From: Streptomyces sp. NBC_01775
GTDB lineage: Bacteria > Actinomycetota > Actinomycetes > Streptomycetales > Streptomycetaceae
Length of the DNA stretch: 64,000 nt
Reading direction: 5' to 3'
Assembly (NCBI RefSeq): GCF_035917675.1
Contig: NZ_CP109104.1
Span: 4,216,001 to 4,280,000 of the forward strand
In this document: positions 3,504 to 25,738 of the stretch, piece after piece
Numbering within the stretch: position 1 is the first letter of the stretch
Layout of the letters: the number at the start of each line of letters is the position of its first letter
Position numbers and translations under genes: made by a program
The notes under the pieces: generated by a model
Database searches by the model: none
What the model saw: only the letters and a program-made list of their open reading frames with translations
What the model was told of the DNA's origin: nothing

Positions 3504-4823
3504 GTGGTTGCCCGAGCAGTGCGCAGCAATGGCCCCAGGTCGGGCCAGGACCTGGTCGGCCGTCTTACGGTCGGTGACTGGCTCAACCAGTGGCTCGCCG
3601 GCAAGCGCATCCGCAAGTCCGGGGTCAGCCGCTACGAGACCGACATCCGCGTGCACTTGAAGCCACGGATCGGTCATCACCGGCTCGACCGCCTGCGCGT
3701 GAGCCACCTCAGCGAGATGTTCACAGCTATCTCGGACGCCAATGCCGAGATCCTGGAGCAGAACGCCCAGCGCAGGACCGCCGTCGATGAGCTGGCCCAG
3801 GTGCCGTGGAAGGGCCTGGAGAACCGCGCCCGGCGCAAGTCGATGAAGGCGGCGATCGACGCCATGCCGCCCTTCCGCCGTGTCACGGGGCCTGCCACCC
3901 GGCTACGAGTCAAGGCCACACTGCGGGCAGCGTTGAACGACGCGATCGCACAGCAGATCATCACCTTCAACCCAGCGGCTCACGTCGAGATCGACCCCGT
4001 CCGCAAACCCAAAGCCCTGGTGTGGACGCACGAACGCGTCGCGAAATGGCGACAGACCGGCGAGAAGCCGTCTTCCGTCATGGTGTGGACGCCGGAGCAG
4101 ACCGGCGCCTTCCTCGACTTCGTCGCGGAGGACCGGCTGTACGCCATGTGGCACCTGATCGCCTTCCGTGGCCTGCGGCGGGGTGAGGCGTGCGGGCAGC
4201 CGTGGTCGGAGACCAATCTCGACACCCGTTTCCTCACCGTCTCCTCCCAGCTCGTCCAGGAGGGCTGGGACGTCGAGTCCTCTGACCCGAAAACGGACAG
4301 CGGCTACCGCGTCATCGCCCTCGACGACGACACGGTCGAGGTTCTGAAGCGCCACCGCGAACGCCAGGGCGCGGACCGCGAGCAGTGGGCCTCGGCCTGG
4401 GTCGACACCGGTCTCGTCTTCACCCAGGAGGACGGCTCGTGGCTGCACCCCGGCAAGGTCAGCGACCTCTTCGAACGGCTCGTCGTCGCATCGGGCCTTC
4501 CGCCCATCCGACTGCACGACCTCCGGCACGGCGCGGCCACCTTCGTGCTCGCGGCCGGCGTAGACGTGAAGGTCGTCTCGGACACGCTCGGGCACAGCGA
4601 CACCCGGATCACGCGGGACATCTACCAAAGCGTCCTGCCCCAGGTCGGCAAGAACGCCGCCGAGGCGACGGCGAAGTTGGTCCCGCTGCAGCGTAAGGCG
4701 GAGGAGAAAGCACGTAAGGCCGAGGAGGAAACGGCCCGCAAGGCGGCCAAGAAGGCTAAACGGACGAAGAAGGCACAGTCCGACGGCAAGAAGAGGGATA
4801 AGAGGAAGAAGCCCACAAAGTAG
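3504..4823 (+). CDS. Tyrosine site-specific integrase, N-terminally truncated remnant
   Basis: A 439-residue reading frame keeping the core-binding and catalytic domains of an actinomycete tyrosine recombinase. Catalytic boxes are present: the first arginine in GLRRGEA, H-x-x-R in LHDLRHGAA, and the histidine and tyrosine in LGHSDTRITRDIYQ. The family normally has about 120-150 further N-terminal residues including an arm-type DNA-binding domain; here the frame opens abruptly just before GRLTVGDWLNQWLAGKR at a GTG, so the 5' part appears lost. The C terminus is a long Lys/Arg/Glu-rich tail. A decayed copy of the tRNA-Thr att region lies ~110 bp downstream, so this was the integrase of an older element at the same tRNA. 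Without the N-terminal arm it is probably inactive. Confidence 0.85.
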   Translation: MVARAVRSNGPRSGQDLVGRLTVGDWLNQWLAGKRIRKSGVSRYETDIRVHLKPRIGHHRLDRLRVSHLSEMFTAISDANAEILEQNAQRRTAVDELAQVPWKGLENRARRKSMKAAIDAMPPFRRVTGPATRLRVKATLRAALNDAIAQQIITFNPAAHVEIDPVRKPKALVWTHERVAKWRQTGEKPSSVMVWTPEQTGAFLDFVAEDRLYAMWHLIAFRGLRRGEACGQPWSETNLDTRFLTVSSQLVQEGWDVESSDPKTDSGYRVIALDDDTVEVLKRHRERQGADREQWASAWVDTGLVFTQEDGSWLHPGKVSDLFERLVVASGLPPIRLHDLRHGAATFVLAAGVDVKVVSDTLGHSDTRITRDIYQSVLPQVGKNAAEATAKLVPLQRKAEEKARKAEEETARKAAKKAKRTKKAQSDGKKRDKRKKPTK

Positions 4824-4840
4824 GGCCTGCGCCCCCTTCG

Positions 4841-4980
4841 CTCACGCAAGCAACCTGACGGCATTCCAGCCGTGCGACGCGTCATACCCCGAGCAGCAGA
4901 AACTCCAGCTCACGGGTTATGTGACCTGACCCTTACCGGAGCCGCCTTCGGGACTCCAACCCGAGACCTATGCATCAGCG
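4841..4980. repeat. Decayed third copy of the integrase-distal/att region
   Basis: About 140 bp matching 7457-7599 in order and orientation: CTCACGCAAG, a GACGCGTCAT block, CCCCGAGCA, a CACGGG(C/T)TATGTGACCTG block and finally CGGAGCCGCC (4937). The tRNA-derived part (4937-4980) has accumulated substitutions relative to the perfect 46-bp att pair. It marks the outer edge of an older insertion and lies directly after the truncated integrase. Confidence 0.75.
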
Positions 4981-5409
4981 CGGCACCCCGCAGGTCGTCC
5001 CGAGTGATGCTGCCCCGTGCCACGGTCAGAGACAGCGCGCTCTGGGCCTACGATCCACCCAAGTCCGCGCTGCGCCACCCCGTCTCTTCACGGATGGCCG
5101 ACGCCCTCCCGATCGCCAGGTGAGGGATCCGGCCGCTCCGCTCGACGTGCTGCGGCTGGTAGCGGCCAGCGTCGCAGGTTTCGCGGCTCCTGGAGGGGCC
5201 TCAGGTCCCGACGAAGCCAAGGTTGAACAGAACCGCGCCCGCGGCTCGGCCGTCAGGCGGTGACGCCTCGACACCACGGACCATGGCCCGGACGCGCTGC
5301 GGAAGCTCACCCATCGGAAGCTCCGCCATTTCCCTAAGTTGCCCGCGCAAAGAACCTTCGGTTGGACTGAGCGGCGCTTCACCACGCGTAGTCTCGTGAT
5401 CGACCCAGC
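4981..5409. other. No supported gene
   Basis: Between the decayed att copy and the end of the minus-strand gene at 5410. Short frames only; no protein family recognised and no strong hairpin seen. Confidence 0.45.
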
Positions 5410-6360
5410 TCAGGCCGTCCTCACCAATACGTTGATAGCGCTCCGCTCCGCTCGGCTCCGCTCGGCTCCGCTCGGCTCCGCCGACAGGTCAGACCGGGTC
5501 GGAAGCCTGGCCACTGTTGGAGAGGCGTCCGCGGACCCCGCACCCCGCTCAAGCTCCACAAGAGCCATCCGATGCAGGTGCAGCACTCTCTGGTAAGCGG
5601 TGTCCAGGCTTGGCGCGCCTGATGCGCTCCCGTCGCACAGGACGCGGTTCCAAGGGCGACTGCGATCCTTCACGTATCGCGAGCTTGTACGCGCTCCCAC
5701 CAGGGTCCGCTTGACAACCAGCGCCGACACTATGGTGCAACCCAGCTGCCCCTCAGCGAAGGGGCCATGTTCGCAACCCATCCACGGCTTACCAGATCGG
5801 CTCTGCGGCCAGTTGAGGTGGTTGTAGAAGACATAGACTGAAATACAGCCTGCCTTCACAGCATCTTCGATCAGAAGGTCGCTCTGGTACCTGTCGCCAT
5901 CAGGCCGGTATCGCAGGTCGTATCCACCATTTCGGTTGGCACGCTTCGCTTGGACGCGCATACCAAACCCCATGTCTCCAGAGTGAAACCACCACTCCCA
6001 GTCCGCGCCGTTCGCGCGTTCCTCGTCACTCGTGAACGGTCGGATCGCTACCCGATCTGCATGGGCTCGGTCGATGGCCCGGAGATTCTCCTCAGTATGT
6101 GTCACTTCACTCGACGGCCAGCCTCTACGGTGCTCGGCAGCCAACGCCTCAAAGGTCAACTCGGCGCGTCGACTGAGGGTTCCGCAGAGTGAGCCGACCA
6201 TAGATGTGCGCGTGCCACAGAGGCGACAAAAGGTGTCATTCCTGTTGATCCGCTGGCCACAAGTGCAGCGCGCCAACTCGCCTTCACCTCTCAACATTCC
6301 ATGTGCCCAGTTTCGCACTCGAACGCCGCTCCACGGCCACGTAACGACCGTATCGGACAA
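5410..6360 (-). CDS. Unknown protein with zinc ribbon and possible PD-(D/E)XK-like core
   Basis: A 316-residue protein, not confidently assigned; it resembles what I recall of the DUF6615 family. Residues ~30-48 form a Cys4 zinc ribbon (CTCGQRINRNDTFCRLCG). The centre has ADWEWWF followed ~10 residues later by MRVQAKR, which fits the D...(E/Q)xK pattern of a PD-(D/E)XK nuclease fold. The C-terminal tail is encoded by a 10-bp tandem repeat (5441-5480). The longest frame starts with TTG; a downstream ATG at 6297 would still include the zinc ribbon. The gene lies alone on the minus strand between two att copies and diverges from the next gene, as expected for element cargo. A defence role is only a guess. 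Confidence 0.6.
   Translation of the reverse strand: MSDTVVTWPWSGVRVRNWAHGMLRGEGELARCTCGQRINRNDTFCRLCGTRTSMVGSLCGTLSRRAELTFEALAAEHRRGWPSSEVTHTEENLRAIDRAHADRVAIRPFTSDEERANGADWEWWFHSGDMGFGMRVQAKRANRNGGYDLRYRPDGDRYQSDLLIEDAVKAGCISVYVFYNHLNWPQSRSGKPWMGCEHGPFAEGQLGCTIVSALVVKRTLVGARTSSRYVKDRSRPWNRVLCDGSASGAPSLDTAYQRVLHLHRMALVELERGAGSADASPTVARLPTRSDLSAEPSGAERSRAERSAINVLVRTA
5441..5480. repeat. 10-bp tandem repeat (CTCGGCTCCG) in coding sequence
   Basis: Three perfect copies at 5451, 5461 and 5471 plus an imperfect copy at 5441, inside the 3' end of the minus-strand gene. Because 10 is not a multiple of three, gain or loss of one unit would shift the C-terminal frame. Confidence 0.8.
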
Positions 6361-6481
6361 GTGAGCGCCGATGACGACGGCGGTGCTATGTGCTCACAAT
6401 CCCAACGGCGCCCCGATGTAGACGACTTCTCGCGCGACGCATGGTTTCCAAGCACACGCTGCACCAGCATGATGGTCTGCC

Positions 6482-7285
6482 GTGAAGGACTTCGTGATTT
6501 CACTCGTGGCCGCAGTGATCGGATTGGCTGCAACCGGGCTGGGCGCCGTTGTTGGAGCACGAGCAGCCAGGTTCGGTGCCGAGAGGAACGCCGAGACCGT
6601 TCGACGGCAGGTACAGGATCAGGGTGTTGTGGAGCATGGCCATTGGCTGAGGCAGCAGCGGCTCAATACATACGAGACCTTCCTCGAAGCCTGGGACGAA
6701 TGCCTGCGTATCACCCAAACCTCGCCAGAAGTACACGACCCCGACTCGACGGGCCTCGAAGATCTCAAAGAGGCCGCAGGCCGTATGGCGGAGCGTGCAC
6801 GGCGCATCGCGCTCTTGGGGCCGGAGGAAGTCACACGCGCGGCCGAGGAGCTGACCGAGACGATGCAGGAAGACGTCGCGGTCTCCACCCGGTTCATCGA
6901 GGTAGCCCAAGCCGCGATAGCGGCGGTCGACAGCCGCCTGGTCCCCTCTGAGGCAGTGGCCGAAGCAACCGAGGAGTACAGGCGGCGCACGGAAAAGCTT
7001 ACTGCACTCATGCACGGTTACCGTGATCAGGGGCGGAGCCTACGCGACCTTGATGGCCACCCCGTACTGGGCGAGATGATGAGGAGCATCGAGCAGTATC
7101 GCCAGGCTTCCAGAGAGGCTCGGGGAGCACTCAAGGAGAACGTCGAGCAGCTGTCCGGAGCCTTCGACGAGGCATCGACGATGGTGGATGTCCTCACGCG
7201 CAACAAGGAAGCACGGGAACTCAGTCGGGAACGTTTCACGAGCGCCGTACGGAAGATACTCGGCACACCACCCACGTCCGAGTAG
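6482..7285 (+). CDS. Unknown membrane-anchored coiled-coil protein
   Basis: A 267-residue protein with one N-terminal membrane segment (VISLVAAVIGLAATGLGAVV, residues ~4-23) followed by a long charged alpha-helical region with heptad-like spacing, predicting an anchored cytoplasmic coiled coil. No catalytic motif or known domain recognised. The GTG start at 6482 lies ~120 bp from the divergently transcribed 316-residue gene, so the two may share a control region. It is the second gene of the 2.6-kb segment between two att copies. Small N-TM coiled-coil proteins occur as partners in several phage-defence systems, but nothing here proves such a role. Confidence 0.6.
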   Translation: MKDFVISLVAAVIGLAATGLGAVVGARAARFGAERNAETVRRQVQDQGVVEHGHWLRQQRLNTYETFLEAWDECLRITQTSPEVHDPDSTGLEDLKEAAGRMAERARRIALLGPEEVTRAAEELTETMQEDVAVSTRFIEVAQAAIAAVDSRLVPSEAVAEATEEYRRRTEKLTALMHGYRDQGRSLRDLDGHPVLGEMMRSIEQYRQASREARGALKENVEQLSGAFDEASTMVDVLTRNKEARELSRERFTSAVRKILGTPPTSE

Positions 7286-7307
7286 CGGTCCGATCGGGGG
7301 ATGAGGG

Positions 7308-7493
7308 ATGGCGGCAATGCCCGCAACCATCGGAAAGCGTCATCCCCTAGGCGGCAAGCAGACCGCCGAAGCAAGTGCGGCCCCCTCCAGTGCAGGGCCA
7401 AAGACACGTGCCAAAGTCAAAGAGAAAGGACGCGCCAGGGCTCCGCTCACGCATCGCTCACGCAAGCCACCCACTGGCATCCAGGCCGTGTGA
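7308..7493 (+). pseudogene. Possible C-terminal remnant of a lost integrase
   Basis: A 61-codon frame rich in Lys/Arg (KTRAKVKEKGRAR) ends just before the segment matching the region downstream of the truncated integrase at 4841. Its position and Lys-rich tail are what would remain if the integrase of this element were deleted from its 5' side. No integrase catalytic box survives, so this rests on position and composition only. Confidence 0.3.
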
Positions 7494-7517
7494 CGCGTCA
7501 TGCCCCGAGCAAGGCAA

Positions 7518-7550
7518 AAGGCCAGGTCACGGGCTATGTGACCTGGCCTT
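7518..7550 (-). terminator. Bidirectional hairpin next to att
   Basis: A perfect 13-bp stem (7518-7530 with 7538-7550) and a 7-nt loop, four bases before the att repeat. In the uninterrupted tRNA-Thr locus this hairpin would sit just downstream of the tRNA 3' end and act as its terminator. A decayed version is visible around 4893-4925. Confidence 0.75.
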
Positions 7551-7553
7551 TCC

Positions 7554-7599
7554 CGGAGCCGCCTAGGGGAGTCGAACCCCTGACCTACGCATTACGAGT
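7554..7599. repeat. att site of the AICE, tRNA-distal end
   Basis: 46 bp identical to 25662-25707 in the tRNA-Thr gene, in the same orientation; flanking bases differ on both sides. It comprises the 3' half of the tRNA (T arm, acceptor strand and anticodon-loop edge) plus three bases beyond. It is the crossover remnant from integration of the 18.1-kb element. Confidence 0.95.
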
Positions 7600-7773
7600 T
7601 GTCCGATCATGGTCCGAGCACGTCCACCTGAGTCCACGTAGCGCATCACCTTGCAGGTCAGGGGTGCTCACGGACCGCAAAGGATGACGGCAGACGAGGG
7701 CGGACTGACAGCTCATGGAGACCACATCTGAGACCGGGAGGCCCCAGTGACAGGGACATCGGTAGGGAGGCAT

Positions 7774-8808
7774 TCATGCCGGAGGACTGCCGGCGTGGGA
7801 TCCATCAGGAAGTGGGTAGCGGTATGCGGTAGCGACGAGCTCTTCGCGCTTCGGTAGCCAGTCGGCCCACGTTCGCCAGCGCCCGCCGCCGCAACGGAGG
7901 TCGTCATCGACTTCGATCTGATCTATGACTATGAGGCAGGTCGGCACGCCTTCAGCGTGACGCACTTCTCCTTCGGTCAGGTCGATGGCTTCGCGGCTGG
8001 TAGTGCTGCCCTTTACCTCTATGTGTGACTCAGTCCCGTCTCTGCGCACGGTGATGTCCCATGGAGAATGGTCGCCCACGTCCTCAATCTGATAGCCCCG
8101 TGAGCTGTAGTGATTGAGTACAAGGTCCATCGCATAGCGCTCGACTGCCTTTCGCTGCTTGGCGTCGTGCTGTCGGCCGTATCCGCTAGGCCCGCGGGTC
8201 TTACGCGTTGGCGAGGAGTGTGGAATAAGCACTTCCGGCTCGCTGGGCTCAGAGATCGCGGTCTGGCGCAGCTCTAGCAACTCAGGAAGCGTCTCCACCA
8301 GTGAGCGGGGGAGCTTGGTCAGATACCCCTGCGCAGCACGGAGCGGTCTCGTGCTTGAGAAGACGAAGGGGAAGTAGAGCGGCCCTGCGACCGAGTCGGT
8401 GAGGCGATCCCGCAGGGCATGGATGCGTGGCTCGATCTCACGCAGGCGCGCCTGCGTGACCGGACGCTTCAACCGCCGGTACCCGCCAAGAGGCGCTTGC
8501 CAGGCTGGCTCTGGGCCTGATGTACCTCGCTGTCGGCCGTAGGTCCCCCGGCTCTGCCAGGTGATGGTCGATGCGAACGCCTCGCCCCGAACATGGGAGT
8601 AGCCGACGACTCCGGGCCCGTGGTTCTTATCCCAATGCAGCACGAGATCACCGGGGCGTACTTCACGAACAAGCGCGTAAGACCAGTACTCTTCGCCCCG
8701 GTCGTTGAGCTGCGGTGCGAGCAGATTCACACCGATGTCTTCGCGGTTCGTGATCTCAAGCCAGTAGCGCTCGTTCGGGTCGTGGCTCCACCACTTGTTT
8801 ACGGACAC
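7774..8808 (-). CDS. EVE-like base-reader fused to DUF3883/PD-(D/E)XK nuclease
   Basis: A 344-residue two-domain protein. Residues ~1-150 resemble EVE/PUA-fold readers of modified bases (NKWWSHDPNERYWLEIT, VREVRPGDLVLHW, GVVGYSHV). The C-terminal half has the DUF3883-type nuclease signature: ERYAMDLVLNHYSSRGYQIED, then the catalytic aspartate in WDITV and E-x-K in SHIEVKGS. Such fusions are predicted modification-dependent (type IV-like) restriction enzymes. It starts at GTG 8808, about 50 bp downstream of a small basic-protein gene on the same strand, and is the first complete gene inside the distal att site, the usual place for cargo. The modified base recognised cannot be told from sequence. 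Confidence 0.75.
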   Translation of the reverse strand: MSVNKWWSHDPNERYWLEITNREDIGVNLLAPQLNDRGEEYWSYALVREVRPGDLVLHWDKNHGPGVVGYSHVRGEAFASTITWQSRGTYGRQRGTSGPEPAWQAPLGGYRRLKRPVTQARLREIEPRIHALRDRLTDSVAGPLYFPFVFSSTRPLRAAQGYLTKLPRSLVETLPELLELRQTAISEPSEPEVLIPHSSPTRKTRGPSGYGRQHDAKQRKAVERYAMDLVLNHYSSRGYQIEDVGDHSPWDITVRRDGTESHIEVKGSTTSREAIDLTEGEVRHAEGVPTCLIVIDQIEVDDDLRCGGGRWRTWADWLPKREELVATAYRYPLPDGSHAGSPPA

Positions 8809-8857
8809 GGTCCTCCCTGGCTGGCCTCTTCCGGATCTCTGCCGATCTTGCCAGGTG

Positions 8858-9079
8858 TCAGAGGCCTTTCTGCCGCTCGGCGTCCCTTTGCCTCACCGCG
8901 TCCAGGCGCGCGAACAGCGTCTTCCAGTCGCGTGCAGCAGAGGCTTTCTGCTGCGCTCGGTCCGGTTTCGCCGACCGCGTCCTGCGCCCCTTCCCGTCCT
9001 TCGGCGCGGCGTGATCGCCGCTGGTGAGCCGAACTCGTTTCGCCGTGCCGTTATAGCGCTGCCGGTCCCCCTTGGCCAT
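8858..9079 (-). CDS. Small basic protein, function unknown
   Basis: A 73-residue, strongly basic protein (many Lys/Arg; MAKGDRQRYNGTAKRVRL) with no hydrophobic segment. It ends 50 bp before the GTG of the EVE-like/nuclease gene on the same strand, so the two could be one transcript. No family recognised. The short length and compositional bias leave some doubt that it is translated; a nucleic-acid-binding accessory of the nuclease is conceivable but unproven. Confidence 0.45.
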   Translation of the reverse strand: MAKGDRQRYNGTAKRVRLTSGDHAAPKDGKGRRTRSAKPDRAQQKASAARDWKTLFARLDAVRQRDAERQKGL

Positions 9080-9235
9080 GTGTGAACGGTACGTGCCGGA
9101 GACGGAGTTGAGGAGAGTCGATTTACGAGTAGAGACAACCTTTCCATCCGGTCGCCGCCTGCCCCTCCTTCGGAGAGTCGCAGCAGAGACACGCGGAAGC
9201 AGCCAGCACGGAGATCATTTGTCGGGCTGGCAGAT

Positions 9236-9493
9236 CTACAGCCTGCTATCGCAACCGCTGCCGACCAGCGGTCCTACCGAAGCATCGCCGCCGGTACCCA
9301 CGTCTGCCCCGCAGTAATGGCAGATCCCCGGACACCCGGTCCGTCGACCAGTCGCACGCTCCCCGGACTCCCCGCTGTTCGGAGCACGAATCACGAACGC
9401 CTGGCAGGCGTACACAGTTGCGCCGAACGTCGCCGATGATGCGCCAGCGTTGACATTAATGCGCGCCGCATGGAACAGTTGCTGCGCCGACAC
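9236..9493 (-). CDS. Possible small zinc-ribbon protein
   Basis: An 85-codon frame from a GTG at 9493 containing GCPGICHYCGADVG, a C-x3-C-x2-C cluster that could bind zinc with the later cysteine. Third positions are GC-biased but less so than in neighbouring genes, and I see no strong ribosome site. It fills the otherwise empty ~440 bp between the divergent small basic gene and the HNH gene. Listed as tentative only. Confidence 0.28.
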   Translation of the reverse strand: MSAQQLFHAARINVNAGASSATFGATVYACQAFVIRAPNSGESGERATGRRTGCPGICHYCGADVGTGGDASVGPLVGSGCDSRL

Positions 9494-9522
9494 TTCGTCG
9501 GCAGCCTAGGGAGGGAGCTCTA

Positions 9523-10227
9523 GTGAGCGATGGCGTGCGCAGAACGTCTTTGGTGAAGGTGGCCGAGTTCGTGGCCAGCAGGGGGATAGGCAACAAGTTC
9601 AGCAAGCTGGACTTGTTCGAAGCCGTGCCCGACGTATCCCAGGCTGATCGCCGCATGCGAGAGCTGCGGCCGATGGGCTGGATCATCGACAACTACAAGG
9701 TCAACCCCAACCTGAAGCCGGACGAGTACCTCGTCCGCGAGCTGGGGACCAGGGTCGATCTCGGCGAAGCAGCCCCCAAGACCATCCGTAAAAACATCAC
9801 GGGCCCCAAGCGCCGTCGCGTCCTGGAACGCGACGGCCACATGTGCCAGGTATGCGGAATCCGTGCCGGTCAGGTCTTCCCCGATGCCCCCGAGCGCGGG
9901 GCCATCATGACGATCGGCCACATCATCCCCGTGAAACGCGGAGGGCAGAACGACGATGGCAACTTGCGGGCCGAGTGTCAGCGCTGTGGCGACGAAGCCC
10001 GCGACTTGACTGTCGACCCGCCCACGGCTGAGCAGGTGCTCGCGCACGCATCACAGGGCAGCCTGAAGGACAAGCGGCAGCTCTACGGCTGGATGCAACT
10101 CGGACGCCGCACTCCTTCCGACATCGAGAAGGTGTTCCAGGAGTGGTCCAGGCTGGGACCCGCTGACCGCATGAGCGTCATGACAGCTCTTGCCGGCCAG
10201 GTCATCAAGGAGCTCGACAACGAGTGA
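9523..10227 (+). CDS. HNH endonuclease with N-terminal winged helix
   Basis: A 234-residue protein. Residues ~5-80 form a winged-helix-like domain (KVAEFVASRGIG, RRMRELRPMGWII) and residues ~95-165 an HNH nuclease with structural zinc cysteines: RDGHMCQVCG, then TIGHIIPVKRGGQNDDGNL with the first histidine and catalytic asparagine, then RAECQRCGDEARD. This layout occurs in stand-alone type II or modification-dependent HNH restriction enzymes. The GTG start follows GGGAGGGAG at good spacing. No methyltransferase is adjacent; the only one in the element is the small C5 methyltransferase at 20605, 10 kb away. A role in restriction is inferred from domain type and cargo position. Confidence 0.78.
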   Translation: MSDGVRRTSLVKVAEFVASRGIGNKFSKLDLFEAVPDVSQADRRMRELRPMGWIIDNYKVNPNLKPDEYLVRELGTRVDLGEAAPKTIRKNITGPKRRRVLERDGHMCQVCGIRAGQVFPDAPERGAIMTIGHIIPVKRGGQNDDGNLRAECQRCGDEARDLTVDPPTAEQVLAHASQGSLKDKRQLYGWMQLGRRTPSDIEKVFQEWSRLGPADRMSVMTALAGQVIKELDNE

Positions 10228-10446
10228 CCGGCCCCGGAAGCCCCTGGTGATAAGGCCACGCCTTCCGTGTCCTGACTACCAGGGGCGCCTGCTCCTGTCG
10301 GCCAGTGCTGTCAAACAGCCGAGCAGAGATAATGCCGTGAGCTGCCCATCCTGGCGACGTGGCACGTATTGCAAAAGCCGCGCCCCTCTCGTCGGCGCTC
10401 CTAACGCCTTGTCTACCCGGAAGTGCTGGGGCCGGGTAGCGGCTAA

Positions 10447-11166
10447 TCAGGAGGCGCGGGGGTGACCTTCGTCGGTCGCGGCTGTGCCCTGCTGTTGGCG
10501 TACGTTAGATGTCGACTGTGGTGTGACGAGACGGCTCGTGTACCCCTCGTCGCACAGCCGGTTGTGGGCCGCCATCACGTCTTCAGGCACCGATAGGGCC
10601 ACCATGAACCCCTGCTCGGGGTAGATCAGTAGGCGCTGAAGCGCACCGACGAGCATGTCAATCACGAGGCGTGCGTCCCCGATGGAGTCGGCGTAGTCCG
10701 TGAACGTCATCGGTGTGGACGCGCTCACGATGTCGATTTCCGGCCACAGTTTGCGGGCCGTAGCGTATGCGCGGCGTTCCTCGTAGGGCTTGCTGATCAG
10801 CAGGACCGACGAGACATCGACGCCCTTCTCTTCGAGCACGGCCCGGCTGAAGCGGATGTTCTCGCCCGTGTTGCGCGCGTACGGCTCGACGAGCACGGCG
10901 GAGCCAGGGACGCCGAGTTCGAGGGCCCGTTCCCGGTAGTGCACCGCCTCACCGCGCGGCATGCGCTCCCGGGTCGTTGGGCTGGTCGCTCCAGTGAAGA
11001 GGAGGAGCGGCGCCATGCCGCGACGGTAGAGGTCAACTGCCGTATCGGCTACGCCCAGGTCGTGACTGCCCAGGCCGACCGCGACCGAGCACGGGCGCGG
11101 TTCGTGATGCATCTGGTGATAGTCCCAGATGGTCTGAGCGTCTTCCCATGCCTGCGCCGAGATCAC
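10447..11166 (-). CDS. YdcF/DUF218 family protein
   Basis: A 239-residue soluble protein of the YdcF-like DUF218 family, recognised by SVAVGLGSHDLGVADTAV, LLLFTGATSPTTRERMPRGEA and the signature EPYARNTGENIRFSRAVLEE, followed by LISKPYEERRAYATARKLW. Members bind nucleotides or act in envelope metabolism; the precise reaction is generally unknown. No signal peptide or membrane helix is present, unlike the membrane-anchored members. GTG 11166 overlaps the stop of the upstream gene by four bases (GTGA), implying translational coupling. It is the last gene of the three-gene GntR operon, an unusual cargo choice for an AICE regulatory locus. Confidence 0.85.
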   Translation of the reverse strand: MISAQAWEDAQTIWDYHQMHHEPRPCSVAVGLGSHDLGVADTAVDLYRRGMAPLLLFTGATSPTTRERMPRGEAVHYRERALELGVPGSAVLVEPYARNTGENIRFSRAVLEEKGVDVSSVLLISKPYEERRAYATARKLWPEIDIVSASTPMTFTDYADSIGDARLVIDMLVGALQRLLIYPEQGFMVALSVPEDVMAAHNRLCDEGYTSRLVTPQSTSNVRQQQGTAATDEGHPRAS

Positions 11167-17212: not shown

Positions 17213-17234
17213 AACCCCTCGAACTACCCGCAAC

Positions 17235-17268
17235 GGGCGGGCCCGCACCAGCTGGTGCGGGCCCGCCC
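17235..17268 (+). terminator. 34-bp perfect palindrome upstream of traB
   Basis: Two 17-base arms form a continuous dyad with no spacer, 23 bp after the preceding stop and 28 bp before the TraB start. As RNA it would be a very stable hairpin; as DNA it could be a protein-binding dyad. It probably ends or attenuates transcription before traB. Confidence 0.7.
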
Positions 17269-17295
17269 TCGTCATACGGCAAAGGAGAGACCTTC

Positions 17296-19539: not shown

Positions 19540-19552
19540 ACCCGACCACCTG

Positions 19553-19685
19553 TCTGTCACCTGTCACCAGGCCCCACACACCCCCTCAAAGAGCGCCTGT
19601 GGGGGCTGCAACCCCGCTTTGACCTGCATGTGACAGGTGACAGACAGGTGACAGGTGACAGGCGGATGACAGGCCGAGTGACAGG
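19553..19685. repeat. GTGACAGG repeats, candidate clt/TRS locus
   Basis: Plus-strand copies of GTGACAGG start at 19630, 19648, 19655 and 19678, with one-base variants at 19637 and 19666; inverted copies lie at 19553-19567. Spacings of 7 and 11 bases create an 18-bp periodicity. The cluster lies immediately downstream of traB, whose C-terminal winged helix is expected to recognise 8-bp repeats, making it the best clt candidate; an iteron role is the alternative. Confidence 0.75.
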
Positions 19686-19724
19686 CACCTCCCACACCGC
19701 ACCACACCGCGAAGGGAGCACACC

Positions 19725-20048
19725 ATGCACCGCCATCCACCACCCCACGGCGGCCCTCCCGGGCACCTCGCCCCGCACCTCCCAGCCGACGACTACCGCC
19801 GCGCCCAGGACAGCGGACAGCCCGTCATCGTCGTCCACACCACGACCCGCACCCACCGCCCGGCCCACGACTTCCTCTTCCCCATCGTCCTCGCGGGCGC
19901 CGGCGTCGCGGGCGTCTTCGGGCTCGTGGCCGCGTTCCTCGCGCTCCTCGACTTCGCAGCCCACACCGCGGTGGCCATCGGCGGTGCCGCGGGCCCGCTG
20001 GGCATCGGCGGAATCACCCTCAAGCTCGCCCGACCCCGCGCCAAGTAG
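19725..20048 (+). CDS. Small membrane protein, SpdD/DUF6251-like
   Basis: A 107-residue protein with a hydrophilic His/Pro-rich N terminus and two adjoining membrane segments (LFPIVLAGAGVAGVFGLVAA; FAAHTAVAIGGAAGPLGIGG). Small proteins of this layout directly after traB are annotated as spread (Spd) or mobile-element transfer proteins in Streptomyces. ATG 19725 follows GAAGGGAG. It lies between the candidate clt repeats and ssb. The Spd assignment rests on position and topology more than sequence. Confidence 0.62.
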   Translation: MHRHPPPHGGPPGHLAPHLPADDYRRAQDSGQPVIVVHTTTRTHRPAHDFLFPIVLAGAGVAGVFGLVAAFLALLDFAAHTAVAIGGAAGPLGIGGITLKLARPRAK

Positions 20049-20065
20049 CAGACAGGAGAAACCCC

Positions 20066-20515
20066 ATGGCCATGGGAGAAACCCCCATCACGATCGTCGG
20101 CAACCTGACCAGCGACCCGGAACTGAAGTTCACCCCCAGCGGTGCGGCTCTGGCCCGGTTCACGGTCGCGTCCACACCGCGCCAGTTCGACCGCACCTCG
20201 GGCCAGTACAAGGACGGCACCGCGATGTTCATGCGCTGCTCCGCATGGCGCGGCCTGGCCGAGAACGTCGCCGCCTCGCTCGCCAAGGGCCACCGCGTGG
20301 TGGTCACGGGGCGGCTGCGCCAGTTCGACTGGCAGACCCCGGAGGGCGAGAACCGCAGCATGCTCGCCATGGAGGTGGATGAGATCGGCCCCAGCCTCCG
20401 GTTCGCCACCGCCGAGCCGGTCAAGGCCACCGGGGACGCCAGGAAGCCGGCGCCCGCCGACGACGCCTGGAACACCGCACCGGCCGCGGCCGGTGGCGAC
20501 GAACCCCCGTTCTGA
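20066..20515 (+). CDS. ssb: Single-stranded DNA-binding protein
   Basis: A 149-residue SSB with the OB-fold signatures ITIVGNLTSDPELKFTPSG, FMRCSAWRGLAENVAASLAK and GHRVVVTGRLRQFDWQTPEG, and the acidic C-terminal tip GGDEPPF used to recruit replication partners. It is shorter than the chromosomal protein (~180-200) and belongs to the element. It probably serves element replication with the prim-pol and ATPase genes downstream. ATG 20066 follows AGGAGAAA. A strong hairpin follows the stop. Confidence 0.95.
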   Translation: MAMGETPITIVGNLTSDPELKFTPSGAALARFTVASTPRQFDRTSGQYKDGTAMFMRCSAWRGLAENVAASLAKGHRVVVTGRLRQFDWQTPEGENRSMLAMEVDEIGPSLRFATAEPVKATGDARKPAPADDAWNTAPAAAGGDEPPF

Positions 20516-20521
20516 CCACGC

Positions 20522-20565
20522 CAGGGGCGGCCCCACCTCGCCAAAGGAATCCGGGGCCGCCCCTG
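20522..20565 (+). terminator. Terminator after ssb
   Basis: A perfect 13-bp GC stem (20522-20534 with 20553-20565) and an 18-nt loop, beginning 7 bp after the ssb stop. It separates ssb from the methyltransferase gene. Confidence 0.7.
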
Positions 20566-20604
20566 CCCACAGCAACTCAATAGAGAGCACTGGAGGTCTC
20601 CAGC

Positions 20605-21288
20605 ATGACCCAACCCACCGACATCCGGCGAGTGCGCGGCCGACGGCCGCGGCTGCTGGATCTGTACTCCTGCCAGGGCGGCGCCGCCAAGGGCTACGCG
20701 GACGCCGGGTTCGATGTCGTCGGCGTCGACAAGGACCCGCAGCCCCGGTACCCGTACGCGTTCGTCCAGGCCGATGCGCTGGACTTCGTGCGCAAGCACG
20801 GCGCCGGGTTCGACTTCATCCACGCGTCCCCGCCCTGCCAGCTCGACTCGGACTGCCAGCGCATCCAGGCCCGGACCCACCCCGACCTGATCGCACCCAC
20901 CCGCGCCGCGCTGCAAGCGACCGGCCGCCCGTGGGTGATGGAGAACGTGCGCGGCGCCCTCCCGAAGCTCCGCGAGCCGGTCATGCTGTGCGGCGCCATG
21001 TTCGGCCTGCACACCTACCGGCACCGGTACTTCGAGACCGGCGGCGGCCTCACCCTCGTCCAGCCGCCGCACCCCGCCCACACAGCGCCGCAGGCCAAGA
21101 TGGGCCGCCCCGTGCCTGAAGGGCACTTCGGGCAGTACGTCGGCAACTTCTCCGGCGTCCCCCAGGCCCGCACCGTGCTCGGAGTGCCGTGGATGAACCG
21201 CGACGGCATCCGCGAATGCATCCCCCCGGCCTACACCGAGCACGTCGGCCGTGCGGCCCTGGCGGTCCGGCTGGAGGTGGCGGCATGA
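20605..21288 (+). CDS. Small C5-cytosine DNA methyltransferase-like protein
   Basis: A 227-residue protein with C5-methyltransferase motifs: motif I RLLDLYSCQGGAAKGY, motif IV SPPCQ with the catalytic cysteine, and motif VI WVMENVRGA. It is much shorter than typical enzymes (300-450), with little room for a target-recognition domain; such minimal versions recur in actinophage and AICE replication modules. It overlaps the prim-pol start (ATGA), so it is the first gene of the replication operon. It may protect element DNA from host restriction or from the element's own nucleases; the target sequence is unknown. Confidence 0.85.
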   Translation: MTQPTDIRRVRGRRPRLLDLYSCQGGAAKGYADAGFDVVGVDKDPQPRYPYAFVQADALDFVRKHGAGFDFIHASPPCQLDSDCQRIQARTHPDLIAPTRAALQATGRPWVMENVRGALPKLREPVMLCGAMFGLHTYRHRYFETGGGLTLVQPPHPAHTAPQAKMGRPVPEGHFGQYVGNFSGVPQARTVLGVPWMNRDGIRECIPPAYTEHVGRAALAVRLEVAA

Positions 21289-22205
21289 GCGCACCCACCA
21301 CCTGCAACCTGGCACTGCTCGCCTGGGCACTGGACGCCGTACGCCGCGGCTGGCACGTCATCCCCCTGCGGCCCGGTGACAAGCGGCCCGCCGGCCACGC
21401 CGACAAGTACTGCCCCGGCACCGGCCGCTGCGCCGGCGGGCACCACACACCCGAGCAGCGCGCCACCACCGACGTGGATCTGCTGGCGGCTGCGTGGTCC
21501 CACCAGCCCTACAACGTAGGCGTCGCCGCGGGCCCGTCCGGACTGCTGGTGGTGGACCTGGACACGCTCAAGGCGACAGACGAAGAAGGAGCGCCTGACG
21601 GCGCAACCGCTCTTCTGGCGCTCTGCGAGCGCGCCGGACAGCCCTACCCGACCACGTTCCAGGTGCGGACCCCGAGCGGAGGGGAGCACCTGTACTTCAC
21701 CCAGCCGCCCGGCGTCGCACTGCATTCCACTGCGGGGCGCCTGGCGAAGCGGATCGACACCCGCGGGTGGGGCGGCTACGTCGTCGCCCCCGGCAGCACC
21801 ACCCCCGACGGCACCTACACCGTCCTGGAGGACCGTCCGCCCACACCGCTGCCCGGCTGGCTGCACGGCGCACTCACACCACCCCGTCGGCCCGCACCGA
21901 CCCCGGCCGGGCCCCCCGCCAGTGGTGGCGGTGGCGGATATGCAGCGGCAGCGCTGCGGGGTGAGGCCGCCAACGTGGCCGGCGCCGCAGACGGCAGCCG
22001 CAACGCCACCCTGCTACGGGCCGCGCGGGCACTGGGACGGCTGGTCGCATCCGGCGACCTGAGCAGGGTCGAGGTTGAGGAGGCTCTTAGTGGGGCGGCG
22101 GCGGGCAACGCAACACAGCCGCAGCGCTACTACGACGACGTGATCCGACGCGGCCTGGACTGGTCCATCACCCACAACCCGGCATCCGGGAGGCGGGCCG
22201 CATGA
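21285..22205 (+). CDS. Bifunctional DNA primase/polymerase (prim-pol)
   Basis: A 306-residue AEP-type primase-polymerase: N-terminal ALDAVRRGWHVIPLRPGDKR, then YNVGVAAGPSGLLVVDLDTL with the acidic metal-binding residues, HLYFTQP and DTRGWGGYVVAPGS, all diagnostic for the prim-pol N domain. It is the replication initiator of the RepPP type used by many AICEs, probably working with the ATPase gene two cistrons downstream. ATG 21285 overlaps the methyltransferase stop by four bases. A Gly/Pro-rich linker (~residues 205-225) precedes a short helical C-terminal domain (RYYDDVIRRGLDWS). Confidence 0.9.
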   Translation: MSAPTTCNLALLAWALDAVRRGWHVIPLRPGDKRPAGHADKYCPGTGRCAGGHHTPEQRATTDVDLLAAAWSHQPYNVGVAAGPSGLLVVDLDTLKATDEEGAPDGATALLALCERAGQPYPTTFQVRTPSGGEHLYFTQPPGVALHSTAGRLAKRIDTRGWGGYVVAPGSTTPDGTYTVLEDRPPTPLPGWLHGALTPPRRPAPTPAGPPASGGGGGYAAAALRGEAANVAGAADGSRNATLLRAARALGRLVASGDLSRVEVEEALSGAAAGNATQPQRYYDDVIRRGLDWSITHNPASGRRAA

Positions 22206-22564
22206 CCAACCCCCCGCCCACTAAGAGCCACAACAACCCCGACCCCACCCCACCCGCCGCACAGACGCCGGGACACGACAACAGCGGCGGCGTGAGCCCT
22301 GGCGCCCGTCAGGGCGTCCTTTCAGTCCTTCCCTTCACCGTCCTCACCGAGGCCGAAGCCCGCGCTGATAGGCACCGCCCTGTGGCCTGGCTCCACATCA
22401 CCGCGCCCAAGGACGAAGCCCCGACCGCCACGTCGGTGTGCGCGTGCGGACGAAACCGCCGCGCTACCGGCCAGGCGGACGTACTCGCACTTCAAGAGAG
22501 CCACACCGCACATCGCGACTCCTGCCCACTCCGCACCCCCACCGAAGGGAGGGCCGCCGCATGA
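22202..22564 (+). CDS. Unknown small protein of the replication operon
   Basis: A 120-residue protein with a Pro-rich disordered N terminus and a C-terminal segment with CACGRNRRATG, a later cysteine and two histidines (HTAHRDSC), suggesting a small zinc site. It overlaps both neighbours by four bases, so it is translated with the prim-pol and the ATPase. Proteins with this pattern recur in Streptomyces elements but I know of no assigned function. Confidence 0.7.
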   Translation: MTNPPPTKSHNNPDPTPPAAQTPGHDNSGGVSPGARQGVLSVLPFTVLTEAEARADRHRPVAWLHITAPKDEAPTATSVCACGRNRRATGQADVLALQESHTAHRDSCPLRTPTEGRAAA

Positions 22565-23793
22565 GCGAGCACATCGACGGCGCCGCACTGCTCGATGAAG
22601 TCGAGCGCTTCCACCGCCGCTTCAACGTCTTCCCAACCGAGGCCGCCTACGTCGCCACGACCTTGTGGGACGGCCACGCGCACCTCATGGACGCGTTCGA
22701 CGGCACCGCCCGCCTGGCCTTCCTCTCCCCCGAACCCGGGTCCGGGAAGTCCCGCGCACTGGAGATCGTGGAAACCCTCACCCCCCGGGCCGCGACCACA
22801 GTCAACGCCTCCGCCAACGCCCTCTTCCGGCTGGTCGAGTCCGATGGCGGCACCCCCACGCTCCTCTTCGATGAGATCGACACCGTGTTCGGCCCCAAGG
22901 CGGGCGACAACGAGCCCGTACGCGGCTTCCTCAACTCCGGCTACCGACGCGGCGGCAAGTCCCTGCGCTGCGTCGGAGACGGCTCCAACCAGAGCGCCGA
23001 ATGGTTCAGCAGCTTCTGCGCCGTCGCCATGGCCGGACTCGGCTCCCTCCCCGACACAATCCTGACCCGCTCGATCATCATCCGCATGCGCAAGCGCGCC
23101 CCCAACGAGAAGATCGAGCCTTACCGCCGGCGCACCCACGAACCCCAGGGTCACGCGCTGCGCAACCGGCTTGCCGAGTGGGCCGACACCATCCGCGACG
23201 ACATCGCCGACGCCTGGCCAGAGATGCCCGAAGGGGTCTCCGACCGGCCCGCCGACGTGTGGGAACCGCTCCTCGCCGTGGCCGACGCGGCTGGCGGGCA
23301 CTGGCCCGAGCGTGGCCGCGCCGCCTGCGTGGAGCTGATCGCCGCCGCCTCGGAGAACGACAAGGCCAGCATCGGCGTCCGCCTGCTGACCGACCTGCGC
23401 GACACGGTGTTCTGCGGCGCGGACCGCATGCCCACCGCCGTCATCCTCGAATGCCTTCTGAGCATGGACGACGCGCCCTGGGCCGACCTGGACGACAAGC
23501 CCCTCAACTCCCGCACCCTGGCCAAGCTGCTCGGCCAGTACGTCACCCCCGCCAACAAGCCGATCCGGCCCCGGGGCATCCGGACCGCCTCCGGCACCCC
23601 GAAGGGCTACCACGCGGAAGACCTTCAGGATGCCTGGACCCGCTACTGCCCCCCTTCCCCCGGAGAGACCGCAACAGCCGCAACGTCCGCCACACCGCAG
23701 GTCAGCGAGGGTGAAAGCGTGGCGGATCCCCTCCCCGGCGTCCGCAACACGTCCGAGGAAGCCGACACACGCACGCTCCGCATCGTCGGCTGA
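22561..23793 (+). CDS. AAA-type ATPase with DUF3631 (replication helicase-like)
   Basis: A 410-residue protein with Walker A EPGSGKS (residues ~57-63) and Walker B LLFDEID (~101-107), followed by the DUF3631 region (TRSIIIRMRKR, MPTAVILECL, NSRTLAKLLGQY, KGYHAEDLQDAW). In AICEs this protein partners the prim-pol and is thought to act as the helicase/loader during excised replication. It overlaps the upstream stop by four bases. The 3' end contains several CCGCAAC repeats that continue downstream and could be the origin. The last ~50 residues are disordered. Confidence 0.85.
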   Translation: MSEHIDGAALLDEVERFHRRFNVFPTEAAYVATTLWDGHAHLMDAFDGTARLAFLSPEPGSGKSRALEIVETLTPRAATTVNASANALFRLVESDGGTPTLLFDEIDTVFGPKAGDNEPVRGFLNSGYRRGGKSLRCVGDGSNQSAEWFSSFCAVAMAGLGSLPDTILTRSIIIRMRKRAPNEKIEPYRRRTHEPQGHALRNRLAEWADTIRDDIADAWPEMPEGVSDRPADVWEPLLAVADAAGGHWPERGRAACVELIAAASENDKASIGVRLLTDLRDTVFCGADRMPTAVILECLLSMDDAPWADLDDKPLNSRTLAKLLGQYVTPANKPIRPRGIRTASGTPKGYHAEDLQDAWTRYCPPSPGETATAATSATPQVSEGESVADPLPGVRNTSEEADTRTLRIVG

Positions 23794-23915
23794 CCAACCC
23801 AGTGCCACCGGTGCCGCCGCGCCCCAGCGTGGCGGCACCTATCCGCAACATGACAGCCGTCCGCCACAGATTCGAGCCGCTGACCAGCAATGTTGCGGCG
23901 TTGCGGCTGTTGCGG
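23669..23915. repeat. CCGCAAC direct and inverted repeats, candidate origin
   Basis: CCGCAAC occurs at 23669, 23678, 23742 and 23843 and its complement GTTGCGG at 23892, 23900 and 23909. Seven copies in ~250 bp span the end of the ATPase gene and the gap before the excisionase. Such clusters act as iterons for plasmid-like replication or as excisionase/regulator sites; position between rep and xis fits both. Confidence 0.6.
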
Positions 23916-23960
23916 ATTCCCCAGACGGAGAAAGGCCGACGGCCGAGGAGGCACACCCTG

Positions 23961-24167
23961 ATGAGCGCCACCATGACCGCACCCGCTGACCGCCTGCTCT
24001 ACAAGCCGGAGGACGCCGCCGAAGTCCTGAGCATCGGCCGCTCCTTCGTCTACGAGCTGATGGCGGCGGGAGAGCTGGAATACGTCGAACTGAGCCGCCG
24101 CTGCCGGCGCATCAAGCGCGCCGCACTGGAGCAGTACGTCGCCAAGCTGCCCCCACAGACCCACTGA
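23961..24167 (+). CDS. xis: Excisionase (MerR-like helix-turn-helix)
   Basis: A 68-residue protein with a MerR/excisionase-type winged helix: YKPEDAAEVLSIGRSFVYEL, then MAAGELEYVELSRRCRRIK with the recognition wing, and AALEQYVAKL. This family directs excisive recombination by binding near att. ATG 23961 (a second ATG at 23973) was preferred over the longer upstream frame, which has no family match. It precedes the integrase by 65 bp, the standard xis-int order. Confidence 0.88.
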   Translation: MSATMTAPADRLLYKPEDAAEVLSIGRSFVYELMAAGELEYVELSRRCRRIKRAALEQYVAKLPPQTH

Positions 24168-24182
24168 CCCACCCACATCCTG

Positions 24183-24214
24183 AGGCGCCCCCGGACACCA
24201 ATCCGGGGGCGCCT
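24183..24214 (+). terminator. Hairpin between xis and int
   Basis: A perfect 13-bp stem (24183-24195 with 24202-24214) and 6-nt loop between the excisionase stop and the integrase ribosome site. It could reduce int expression relative to xis. Confidence 0.75.
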
Positions 24215-24232
24215 CCTTGCATGGAGGAGCAC

Positions 24233-25618
24233 GTGAGCCCTCGTAAGCCGAACATGGAGTCGTCCATCTACCTGGGCAGTGACGGGTGGTGGCACGGCCG
24301 CGTCACGATGGGCGTGAAGAACGACGGGAGTCCGGACCGCCGGCATCGTCGGGCGAAGACCGAACCGGAAGTCAAGCGCAAGGTCAAGGAGCTGGAACGG
24401 CTCCGGGACGAGGGTCGGGCGCCGAAGGCCGGGCGGAAGCCCACCGTTGAGCAGTGGCTGACGACGTACCTCACCACCATCGCGAGCCTGAAACTCAAGC
24501 CGCGCTCCCTGGATGACTACTGGTCGAAGGCCCGAAACGACATCGTCCCCGGGGTTGGTCAGCACCGTATCGACAAGCTCCGGCCGGAGCACTTGGAGCG
24601 GATGTACGCCGACATGCTCGAAGAGGGTCACGCGCCCTCCCACGTGGTGAAGGTCCATCGCATCCTGTCGCGGGCACTGAAGATCGCTCACCGTCGTCGG
24701 ATCATCTCGGAGAACGTGGCCACCCTGGTCGATCCGCCATCCGTCGATGAGACCGAGGCGAACCCCTTCACCATGGCGGAAGCCAAGGCGTTCCTACTGG
24801 CTGCCGCGAAGCGCCCGACCTCCCTCCGCTGGATCGTCGGCGTGGGCATGGGGTTCCGCCAAGGGGAATGCCTGGGGCTGCGCTGGAAGTACGTTGACCT
24901 CGAAGCCGAGTTGTTCCACCCGCGATGGCAGCTCCAGCGCCTCACCTGGCGCCACGGCTGTCCCGACCCGCACGCCTGCGGGACCCGCCTGCACCGCTTC
25001 GAACCGTGCCCTGAGAAGTGCACAGTCCACAAGCACTACACGCGCGGCTGTCCCCCGCCGTGCTCGGAGGACTGCACCCGGCACGCGAGCGTCTGCCCGG
25101 AGCGCAAAGGTGGCGGGCTCGTCTTCACGCGGCCCAAGACGAAGAAGAGCCGTGAGCCCGTGCCGATCCCTCCCCCGTTCATCCCCCACCTGGCCGCCCA
25201 ACGTGAGGCCCAGCAGGAAGCGCGCGAGGCAGCCGGTGAGCTGTGGGAGGAGCACGACGCGGTGTTCGCCCGGCCGGACGGTCGCCCCTTCGACCCCCGA
25301 GCGGACTGGGAGGAGTTCAAGGAGCTGTTGGAGGAGTCGGGCATCAGCGACCGTCGGCTCTACGACGGGAGCCGCCACACGGCCGGCACGATCCTGAACG
25401 AACTGGGGGTGGACATGCCCACGATCATGGAGATCCTGCGGCACACCCAGATCAGCCAGACGCGGCGGTACGTCAAGGGTCGGTCGGAACTGTCGAAGGA
25501 GGCCATGCGGCGTATGGGGGACGCTTTCCTGCCCCCGCCCCGGGCCACGTCTGAGACCAAAACTGAGACTGGGCAGACCCGCGCGGAGCGAGCGAAGCGC
25601 CGCCGTCGCATCCGCTGA
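24233..25618 (+). CDS. int: Tyrosine site-specific integrase of the AICE
   Basis: A 461-residue tyrosine recombinase that integrates the element into tRNA-Thr. The N-terminal arm domain (SSIYLGSDGWWHGRVTMGVK) and core-binding domain are complete. Catalytic residues: Arg in GFRQGECLG (~residue 206), RHT in DGSRHTAGTIL, His in LRHTQISQ and the nucleophile Tyr in TRRYVKG (~411). The usual H-x-x-R box reads Y-D-G-S-R, so the first histidine is replaced. A Cys-rich zinc-like insert (HACGTRLHRFEPCPEKC and CPPPCSEDC, ~residues 245-290) is typical for this subfamily. GTG 24233 is preferred over ATG 24221 because the latter overlaps the GGAGGAG ribosome site. The stop is 44 bp before the att site. Confidence 0.95.
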   Translation: MSPRKPNMESSIYLGSDGWWHGRVTMGVKNDGSPDRRHRRAKTEPEVKRKVKELERLRDEGRAPKAGRKPTVEQWLTTYLTTIASLKLKPRSLDDYWSKARNDIVPGVGQHRIDKLRPEHLERMYADMLEEGHAPSHVVKVHRILSRALKIAHRRRIISENVATLVDPPSVDETEANPFTMAEAKAFLLAAAKRPTSLRWIVGVGMGFRQGECLGLRWKYVDLEAELFHPRWQLQRLTWRHGCPDPHACGTRLHRFEPCPEKCTVHKHYTRGCPPPCSEDCTRHASVCPERKGGGLVFTRPKTKKSREPVPIPPPFIPHLAAQREAQQEAREAAGELWEEHDAVFARPDGRPFDPRADWEEFKELLEESGISDRRLYDGSRHTAGTILNELGVDMPTIMEILRHTQISQTRRYVKGRSELSKEAMRRMGDAFLPPPRATSETKTETGQTRAERAKRRRRIR

Positions 25619-25626
25619 AGCACAAA

Positions 25627-25656
25627 ACCCCAGGTCAGAATCCTCTGACCTGGGGT
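25627..25656. terminator. Bidirectional terminator between int and tRNA-Thr
   Basis: A perfect 13-bp stem (25627-25639 with 25644-25656) and a 4-nt loop. It lies 8 bp after the integrase stop and 9 bp beyond the tRNA 3' end on the opposite strand, so it can end both transcripts. It is element-borne and replaces the host hairpin now displaced to 7518-7550. Confidence 0.8.
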
Positions 25657-25661
25657 CCCAG

Positions 25662-25707
25662 CGGAGCCGCCTAGGGGAGTCGAACCCCTGACCTACGCAT
25701 TACGAGT
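25662..25707. repeat. att site of the AICE, tRNA side
   Basis: Identical to 7554-7599 over 46 bp and continuous with the intact tRNA-Thr 5' half. The element carries the tRNA 3' end, so integration restores the gene. Confidence 0.95.
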
Positions 25708-25738
25708 GCGTCGCTCTGGCCGACTGAGCTAAGGCGGC
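25665..25738 (-). tRNA. tRNA-Thr (CGU)
   Basis: The minus strand folds as a cloverleaf: acceptor GCCGCCT/AGGCGGC, D arm with AGCTCAGTCGGCCAGAG, anticodon stem ACGCA/TGCGT around CTCGTAA giving anticodon CGT, and T arm with GGTTCGACTCC. CCA is not encoded. The 3' half is the attachment core of the element. Confidence 0.96.

Follow-up and report, generated by a model that had tools for sequence, protein, structure and literature searches.

The 64,000-nucleotide stretch analyzed here (the window, C1:4216001-4280000 on contig NZ_CP109104.1 of the 9.34-Mb Streptomyces sp. NBC_01775 genome) contains a tRNA-Thr(CGT) gene that very probably anchors a tandem accretion array of three elements, whichever history brought them there. 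As read from the sequence, the array would run chromosome, c4, C, c3, B, c2, A, c1/tRNA, where c1 to c4 are copies of the attachment site (att). Element A appears to be an intact-looking actinomycete integrative and conjugative element (AICE) between two identical att copies, B is a 2.6-kb relic, and C is an 18.8-kb island. The elements share one site specificity and four direct att copies, and the arms at these copies are specific to element type. A first-pass annotation, made from the letters of the window, missed the fourth copy, the presence of two integrase families, and the possible C-B composite discussed below.

Attachment-site copies and their flanks

The tRNA-Thr(CGT) gene at 25663-25738 was the sole full-length match to its sequence in its own genome at E <= 0.001. 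c1 consists of the tRNA 3' half and one adjoining base, and its 46 bp (25662-25707) recur perfectly at 7554-7599 (c2), as stated in the first-pass annotation, which let this repeat bound the AICE. This identity is compatible with excision of element A. The third copy with its flank was likewise recovered behind a truncated integrase: 4838-4975 matches 7454-7592 with 80.7% identity over 140 columns (E = 3e-31 in the 120-kb region). The fourth copy lies 13.9 kb left of the window at contig 4202052-4202094 (window -13948 to -13906), and is identical to 25664-25706 at 43 of 43 positions. No fifth copy was seen in the 120 kb around the site. In a whole-genome search with the tRNA region, c3 itself fell under the threshold, and similarly decayed copies beyond 120 kb could escape. 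All copies are in direct orientation and in tandem; the earlier description of them as nested was thus mistaken.

Flanks were typed by comparison with relatives. A search with the right flank of the tRNA gave a match in all 150 genus genomes (own included), and the left side of tRNA-Thr was compared at 79 loci drawn from them. This sample was non-random: 20 loci came from the best right-flank matches and the remainder were mostly chosen for long contigs. A left flank of >17 kb was available at 77 loci, and 20 of these carry a distal att copy 1-19 kb from the tRNA (G136, with a weak copy, was left out, and copies <1 kb from the tRNA were not counted). Two distantly related integrase families, intA and intC (23% identical), recur at tRNA-Thr in this survey. 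Further stacks occur in G141 and G145. Att-flanked or integrase-adjacent segments (listed as frames) were present in G005, G015, G141, G047, G066, and G074. At loci L061 and L108 (G005, G066), small att-flanked segments of 3.1 and 5.4 kb, located at the same tRNA, have no whole integrase of either family; G066 has an intC-type integrase with a large internal deletion.

Each family has recognizable ends. Five loci combine a full adjacent intA with a distal copy (G115, G027, G140, G132, and G134), and in all five that copy runs on into (T/C)TGTCCGATC. The c2 copy of the window continues in the same way, so that its right flank is an intA-family left end (TTGTCCGATC). A second left end is common to G053, G066, and G145 (intC or intC fragments) and to G005, G015, and G100, in which an integrase of either family was not found and which were assigned by ends alone. 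The CTCACGCA arm repeat follows about 160 bp on in five of these six left ends (not in G015). The sequence right of c4 is an intC-family left end with two arm repeats, scoring 226 against a mean of 99 and a maximum of 122 in 100 shuffles. On the other side, the intC integrase usually precedes two CGCTCACGCA repeats, then a hairpin, and finally att; among the best 29 intC loci outside this genome, an att half-copy is present in 24 and the exact double arm repeat in 23. The left flanks of c2 and c3 (the latter with one repeat only) are of this right-arm type; over 114 columns, the c2 arm shares 94% identity with the one that adjoins tRNA-Thr in G058. The left flank of c4 was likened by eye to the hairpin beside the tRNA in G036 and is probably native. 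The type of most arms is thereby readable, and the ends of each layer of the stack can be assigned to an integrase family.

Elements C and B

Element C extends from c4 to c3 and is built as an intC-family island, with the left end and arm repeats of the family at c4 and its right arm and integrase at c3, the integrase being N-terminally truncated. DNA homology to six relatives starts at 3532-3543, which corresponds to residues 114-120 of the stop-to-stop frames of G141 (534 aa), G052 (540), and G041 (543). Compared with these three, roughly the first 110-120 residues are absent. The frames of G053 (482 aa), G047 (587), and G058 (751) start elsewhere.

Element B (4976-7553) comprises a degenerate left end, a DUF6615-family gene, a 267-aa open reading frame (ORF), an integrase tail, and an arm, followed by c2. 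The first-pass annotation had proposed a remnant between the second and third copies, and this is borne out by a left end resembling that of intC elements, the integrase tail, and the intC right arm at c2. The first 80-90 bp right of c3 were scored against the left ends of six relatives and that at c4. The summed score was 164, which was reached by none of 200 shuffles (mean 122, maximum 152). The top match of the tail at 7334-7439 is the 3' end of the window's own intC. With 21 tails cut from a fixed integrase motif, none of 400 shuffles and none of 115 control windows attained its mean score.

The homology of the DUF6615 gene to G052 and G158 runs on to 5199-5216 in another frame; its DNA is 76% identical to that of G052, where it adjoins intC. 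The 267-aa ORF shows 74-85% DNA identity to seven strong outside loci, five of which lie beside a tRNA-Thr(-type) att. In PADLOC, the DUF6615 protein had no family and the 267-aa ORF only a marginal JetC match (E=3e-4). A Pfam scan of the two longest ORFs of 4976-7553 revealed no transfer protein. Like a cis-mobilizable element (CIME), B has lost its integration and transfer genes, only the integrase tail being found. A CIME keeps both attL and attR, whereas in B c2 is intact and c3 is broken in the anticodon-loop block; therefore, B was filed as a decayed relic in CIME position and not as a CIME proper. With its left att broken, B alone should not excise and could move only with a neighbour.

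The cargo of B was searched at the DNA level in 392 genomes (match, E <= 1e-8; strong match, E <= 1e-100), and 20 genomes, own included, gave a match. The first-pass annotation had counted the presence of the 4.8-7.5 kb content elsewhere as evidence against its reading. That content does occur in other genomes, but seven of the nine strong outside matches adjoin tRNA-Thr or an att copy of tRNA-Thr type. In G052 and G158 the match is to the DUF6615 gene, and in G083, G019, G387, G165, and G064 to the coiled-coil ORF. For the other two, G319 and G099, the 20 kb compared gave no tRNA, att, or integrase match. Integrase sequence upstream of the cargo is intC-type in G052, G019, G083 (a fragment), and G158 (interrupted by about 5 kb), and intA-type in G165 and G064; G387 has only a weak tail (E=7e-4). 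Six of the ten weaker outside matches were viewed, of which three lie near att or tRNA-Thr (G112, G259, and G101) and three do not. In total, 15 of the 19 genomes outside this one were viewed for cargo context; the other four (G196, G096, G104, and G248) have the weakest matches. A tRNA-Thr or att half-copy lies within about 1 kb of the cargo in ten of them (G019, G158, G083, G052, G387, G165, G064, G112, G259, and G101), and none was nearby in the available DNA of five (G319, G099, G180, G069, and G358). Integrase tails after the cargo were sought in the intC-type loci of G019, G158, G387, and G052, and none scored above the best of 60 shuffles each. In the intA-type loci of G165, G064, and G112, such a tail was recognized by eye only.

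T-arm alleles and the history of the array

Of the 79 tRNAs surveyed, 66 have the T-arm TTCGGG/CCCGAG, seven TAAGGG, three TAGGGG, and three a single variant each. The resident tRNA of the window has TAGGGG (stem AGGGG/CCCCT), and the T-stem of c3, TCGGG/CCCGA, is the commonest surveyed allele. c3 differs from the resident half at 12 positions, four of which are the compensated T-stem change of the other tRNA-Thr allele; against the common allele it has 8 of 43 positions changed, five of them in the last six bases. c3 is therefore changed, as the first-pass annotation held, but its differences are not explained by wear of the resident tRNA half alone. The same annotation described a gradient of decay away from the tRNA. 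This failed with c4, which has 0 of 43 changes although it lies farther out than c3. If the copies had been stacked in situ, c4 would have to be at least as old as its inner neighbour, and hence decay does not run outward here. G141 resembles the window: its outer and tRNA copies are perfect, its internal copy is changed at 7 of 43 positions, and its intC is in an open frame. In G145 the outer copy is 90% identical and the internal copy perfect. Outward decay with in-situ accretion thus seems to occur too, and both histories seem to exist in the genus.

The tyrosine integrases intA and intC are proposed to use tRNA-Thr(CGT) and to recombine in its anticodon-loop part. Each insertion would add the element's own tRNA 3' half (T-arm, 3' acceptor strand, and hairpin) to the gene and strand the previous half as a distal att copy. 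G055 has a TTCGGG tRNA and a stranded TAAGGG copy with one broken stem pair, as T-arm replacement predicts. This suggests that an incoming element can replace a tRNA 3' half with one whose T-stem differs but is still fully paired, in G055 and, by extension, in c3. A literature search found nothing plainly on point for such an exchange; we do not claim that it is absent from print. The crossover position in the anticodon loop, the order C, then B, then A, and the history of the array are inferred.

The first-pass annotation is supported in that two elements besides the AICE are present, but it took them for separate insertions. Within this array, and by a little better than an even chance, C and B reached this lineage already joined, as a single composite with c4 and c2 at its ends and c3 broken beforehand; A came last. 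In favour of this, the internal copy is changed and the outer copy unchanged in both the window (8/43) and G141 (7/43); outside the last six bases, the two loci together have six internal changes and no outer one (sign probability about 0.016, by hand). In the alternative, strict in-situ history, C, B, and A inserted singly at this tRNA in this lineage and the older copies decayed in place. Accretion of this kind is documented in the literature, G145 shows the outward decay that it implies, and G055 indicates that a T-arm switch is possible. However, c4 must then be at least as old as c3 despite 0/43 against 8/43 changes. Two T-arm switches would also be needed (AGGGG/CCCCT to TCGGG/CCCGA and back), and G138 and G088, the two closest genomes by right flank, carry TAGGGG. 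We consider this history the less probable one. It is improbable that the 2.6-kb segment, together with c3, stems from recombination between the integrase 3' ends of related elements or from their duplication, with no site-specific insertion of B. Loci with integrase, cargo, integrase tail, arm, and att in this order and no obvious internal att (G165, G064, and G112, tails by eye) could also be products of unequal recombination, but c3 has an arm, hairpin, and T-arm on its left, and on its right a resemblance to an intC left end that is unexpected from a right-end duplication. Finally, the c3 match might be unconnected with tRNA-Thr and reflect a dispersed hairpin or a generic tRNA T-arm; a dispersed repeat unrelated to tRNA-Thr is what the first-pass annotation had named as a way to be wrong. 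T-arm and hairpin sequences are common, and weak matches occur at other tRNA-like places in the genome. We reject this as scarcely credible, because the match spans 140 columns including the integrase-side arm, and an arm of the same type adjoins tRNA-Thr att sites in relatives.

Several observations weigh against the array as read here, the C-B composite included. Two loci and six substitutions are all that underlie the case for the composite, and G145 has the opposite pattern. The left-end resemblance right of c3 is weak. The best score of the B tail, 65, is only one point above the highest of the 400 shuffles, 64, and a shorter test with tails cut at 165 bp was not significant (24 shuffles out of 300 reached the score, as did 4 of 115 control windows). 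The left end of G108, which has an intA fragment only, differs from the intA signature. No empty-site sister was found: in G138 and G088, the 57-58 kb to the left of the tRNA gave only three scattered, weak matches to the genes of the region (27-41% identity) besides the right-flank gene.

Taken as a whole, a wider reading is tentative and somewhat short of an even chance. The stranded att half-copies would be a fossil record of earlier alleles of a tRNA gene, c3 having been broken and having carried its foreign T-arm before the C-B composite arrived, and internal loss of the crossover site would lock accreted elements into one mobile composite. Small relics (cargo gene, integrase tail, arm, and att) with the same two cargo genes would have been added repeatedly behind integrases of different families at tRNA-Thr genes. 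If so, the gap between integrase and att would be a growth point for cargo. The testable rule we offer is that inactivation of an internal att would turn unstable tandem stacks into permanent composite islands.

Comparison with known accretion systems

Tandem accretion is already known in Streptomyces, and the array described here is a further case of that kind, judging from the parts of the reports considered here. AICE accretion at tRNA-Arg in rhizosphere Streptomyces is similar: direct repeats at a single tRNA enclose one to three elements that differ in family and integrase, together with the trace of an ancient element, and tRNA-Thr is also reported to host elements with different integrases (PMC9513070). 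The tRNA differs, and in the portion of that paper considered T-arm alleles are unused and internal att copies undissected (PMC9513070). Two AICEs stand in tandem in one tRNA gene in S. avermitilis (Sav3708/Sav3728) and Frankia (Fean5518/Fean5534); the integrases of the Sav pair are of two subfamilies, the Frankia pair excises singly and together, and pSE211-type integrases use a tRNA-Thr (PMC3218068). Unlike these pairs as described in that source (PMC3218068), the AICE in the window has both a truncated island and a relic at its site. A decayed element in tandem with a functional one also recalls the accretion of CIMEs with integrative and conjugative elements of the ICESt1 type (PMC5704250). 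CIMEs keep their att ends, and the entry of a whole composite is explicitly considered in the sections drawn on (PMC5704250); in contrast, the left att of B has a broken anticodon-loop block. Tandem islands with internal att are reported in S. scabiei (TR1/TR2) and S. turgidiscabies (PMC8369830, PMC10711302). In contrast to the array here, they lie in aviX1 or bacA, and their subregions are described in these sources as excising separately (PMC8369830, PMC10711302).

Feature coordinates

Features of the array at tRNA-Thr(CGT), in window positions
Feature	Position	Strand	Basis
intC-family tyrosine integrase of C	3504-4823	+	Pfam Phage_integrase; relatives' frames
Integrase-side arm of C	4839-4936		One CGCTCACGCA repeat 4839-4848; hairpin-like 4900-4934
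att copy c3, junction element C / element B	4937-4975		T-arm TTCGGG/CCCGAG; broken after GCAT in anticodon-loop region
Degenerate intC-family left end of B	4976-5110		Left-end scoring; extent to 5110 from alignment
DUF6615-family gene of B	5216-6360	-	Open frame 5410-6360; Pfam DUF6615 E=3.8e-6
267-aa coiled-coil-like ORF of B	6482-7285	+	No Pfam family
Relic tail of B's intC-family integrase	7334-7439	+	Tail-score test vs 21 tails
Integrase-side arm of B	7444-7553		CGCTCACGCA at 7444-7453 and 7455-7464; hairpin 7517-7551
att copy c2, junction element B / element A	7554-7599		100% to c1
Element A, AICE of 18 kb	7600-25661		intA-family ends and genes
Prim-Pol replication protein	21189-22205	+	Pfam E=8.5e-45
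DUF3631 protein	22438-23793	+	Pfam E=3.2e-63
HTH_17 excisionase-like gene	23961-24167	+	Family search
intA-family tyrosine integrase	24221-25618	+	Pfam, survey, alignment
att copy c1, junction element A / tRNA, 46 bp	25662-25707		100% to 7554-7599
tRNA-Thr(CGT)	25663-25738	-	ARAGORN; 3' half = attachment site

Gene content of the array and adjoining DNA

Element A has several of the parts by which AICEs are recognized. Its tyrosine integrase gene ends 43 bp from c1, the att in the tRNA 3' end, and the product is 79-83% identical to the integrases of six relatives at the same tRNA; a Prim-Pol-type replication protein and an excisionase-like gene are nearby. Further genes encode a single-stranded DNA-binding protein and GntR and NUDIX proteins. 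AICEs also encode an FtsK-like TraB transfer protein. The product of 17185-19539 (+), which has a weak Pfam match to AAA_29 (E=2.7e-4, below the cut-off), is a probable TraB-like P-loop transfer protein, as judged from its position.

Gene order in C, from c4, is an N6-methyltransferase gene, a specificity-subunit-like gene, a tRNA-Met, and a cluster headed by a second glutamyl-tRNA synthetase. The first two genes lie directly behind c4 (L010:2278-4844) and have a low GC content of about 56-58%. The extra tRNA-Met(CAT), at L010:5086-5160 between the methyltransferase gene and the second GltX, is 96-98% identical to three other sites in the genome, and ARAGORN found no tRNA-Met in the stretches around the cluster from six relatives. 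The conserved cluster runs from L010:5438 (window -10562) to window 2732. Its synthetase is 53% identical to the genome's other copy and is followed by an HD protein, a carbamoyltransferase, two radical SAM proteins, glycosyltransferases, a D-2-hydroxyacid dehydrogenase, and a DAO oxidoreductase. Twelve of the 14 queried genes (all except the small ORF 3190-3369 and the integrase) occur in the same order in all six relatives compared; in G006, the synthetase was only partly found. The second radical SAM gene is present in 18 other genomes of the 392 searched. In the literature, no paper was found that matches this gltX-type cluster in full. Our guess is that the second synthetase serves the cluster product or protects against it.

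Just left of c4 (window -20311 to -14512) lie genes resembling those for Rieske, ferredoxin-reductase, and flavin enzymes, with lower GC at third codon positions. These names come from sequence reading and not from a family search, and the genes had no match in the first 20 loci compared. This segment is perhaps an older insertion. At the left end of the AICE, 7774-10227 encodes an EVE/NO VEIN-like protein and an HNH endonuclease (PADLOC REase_II), which are possible defence cargo.

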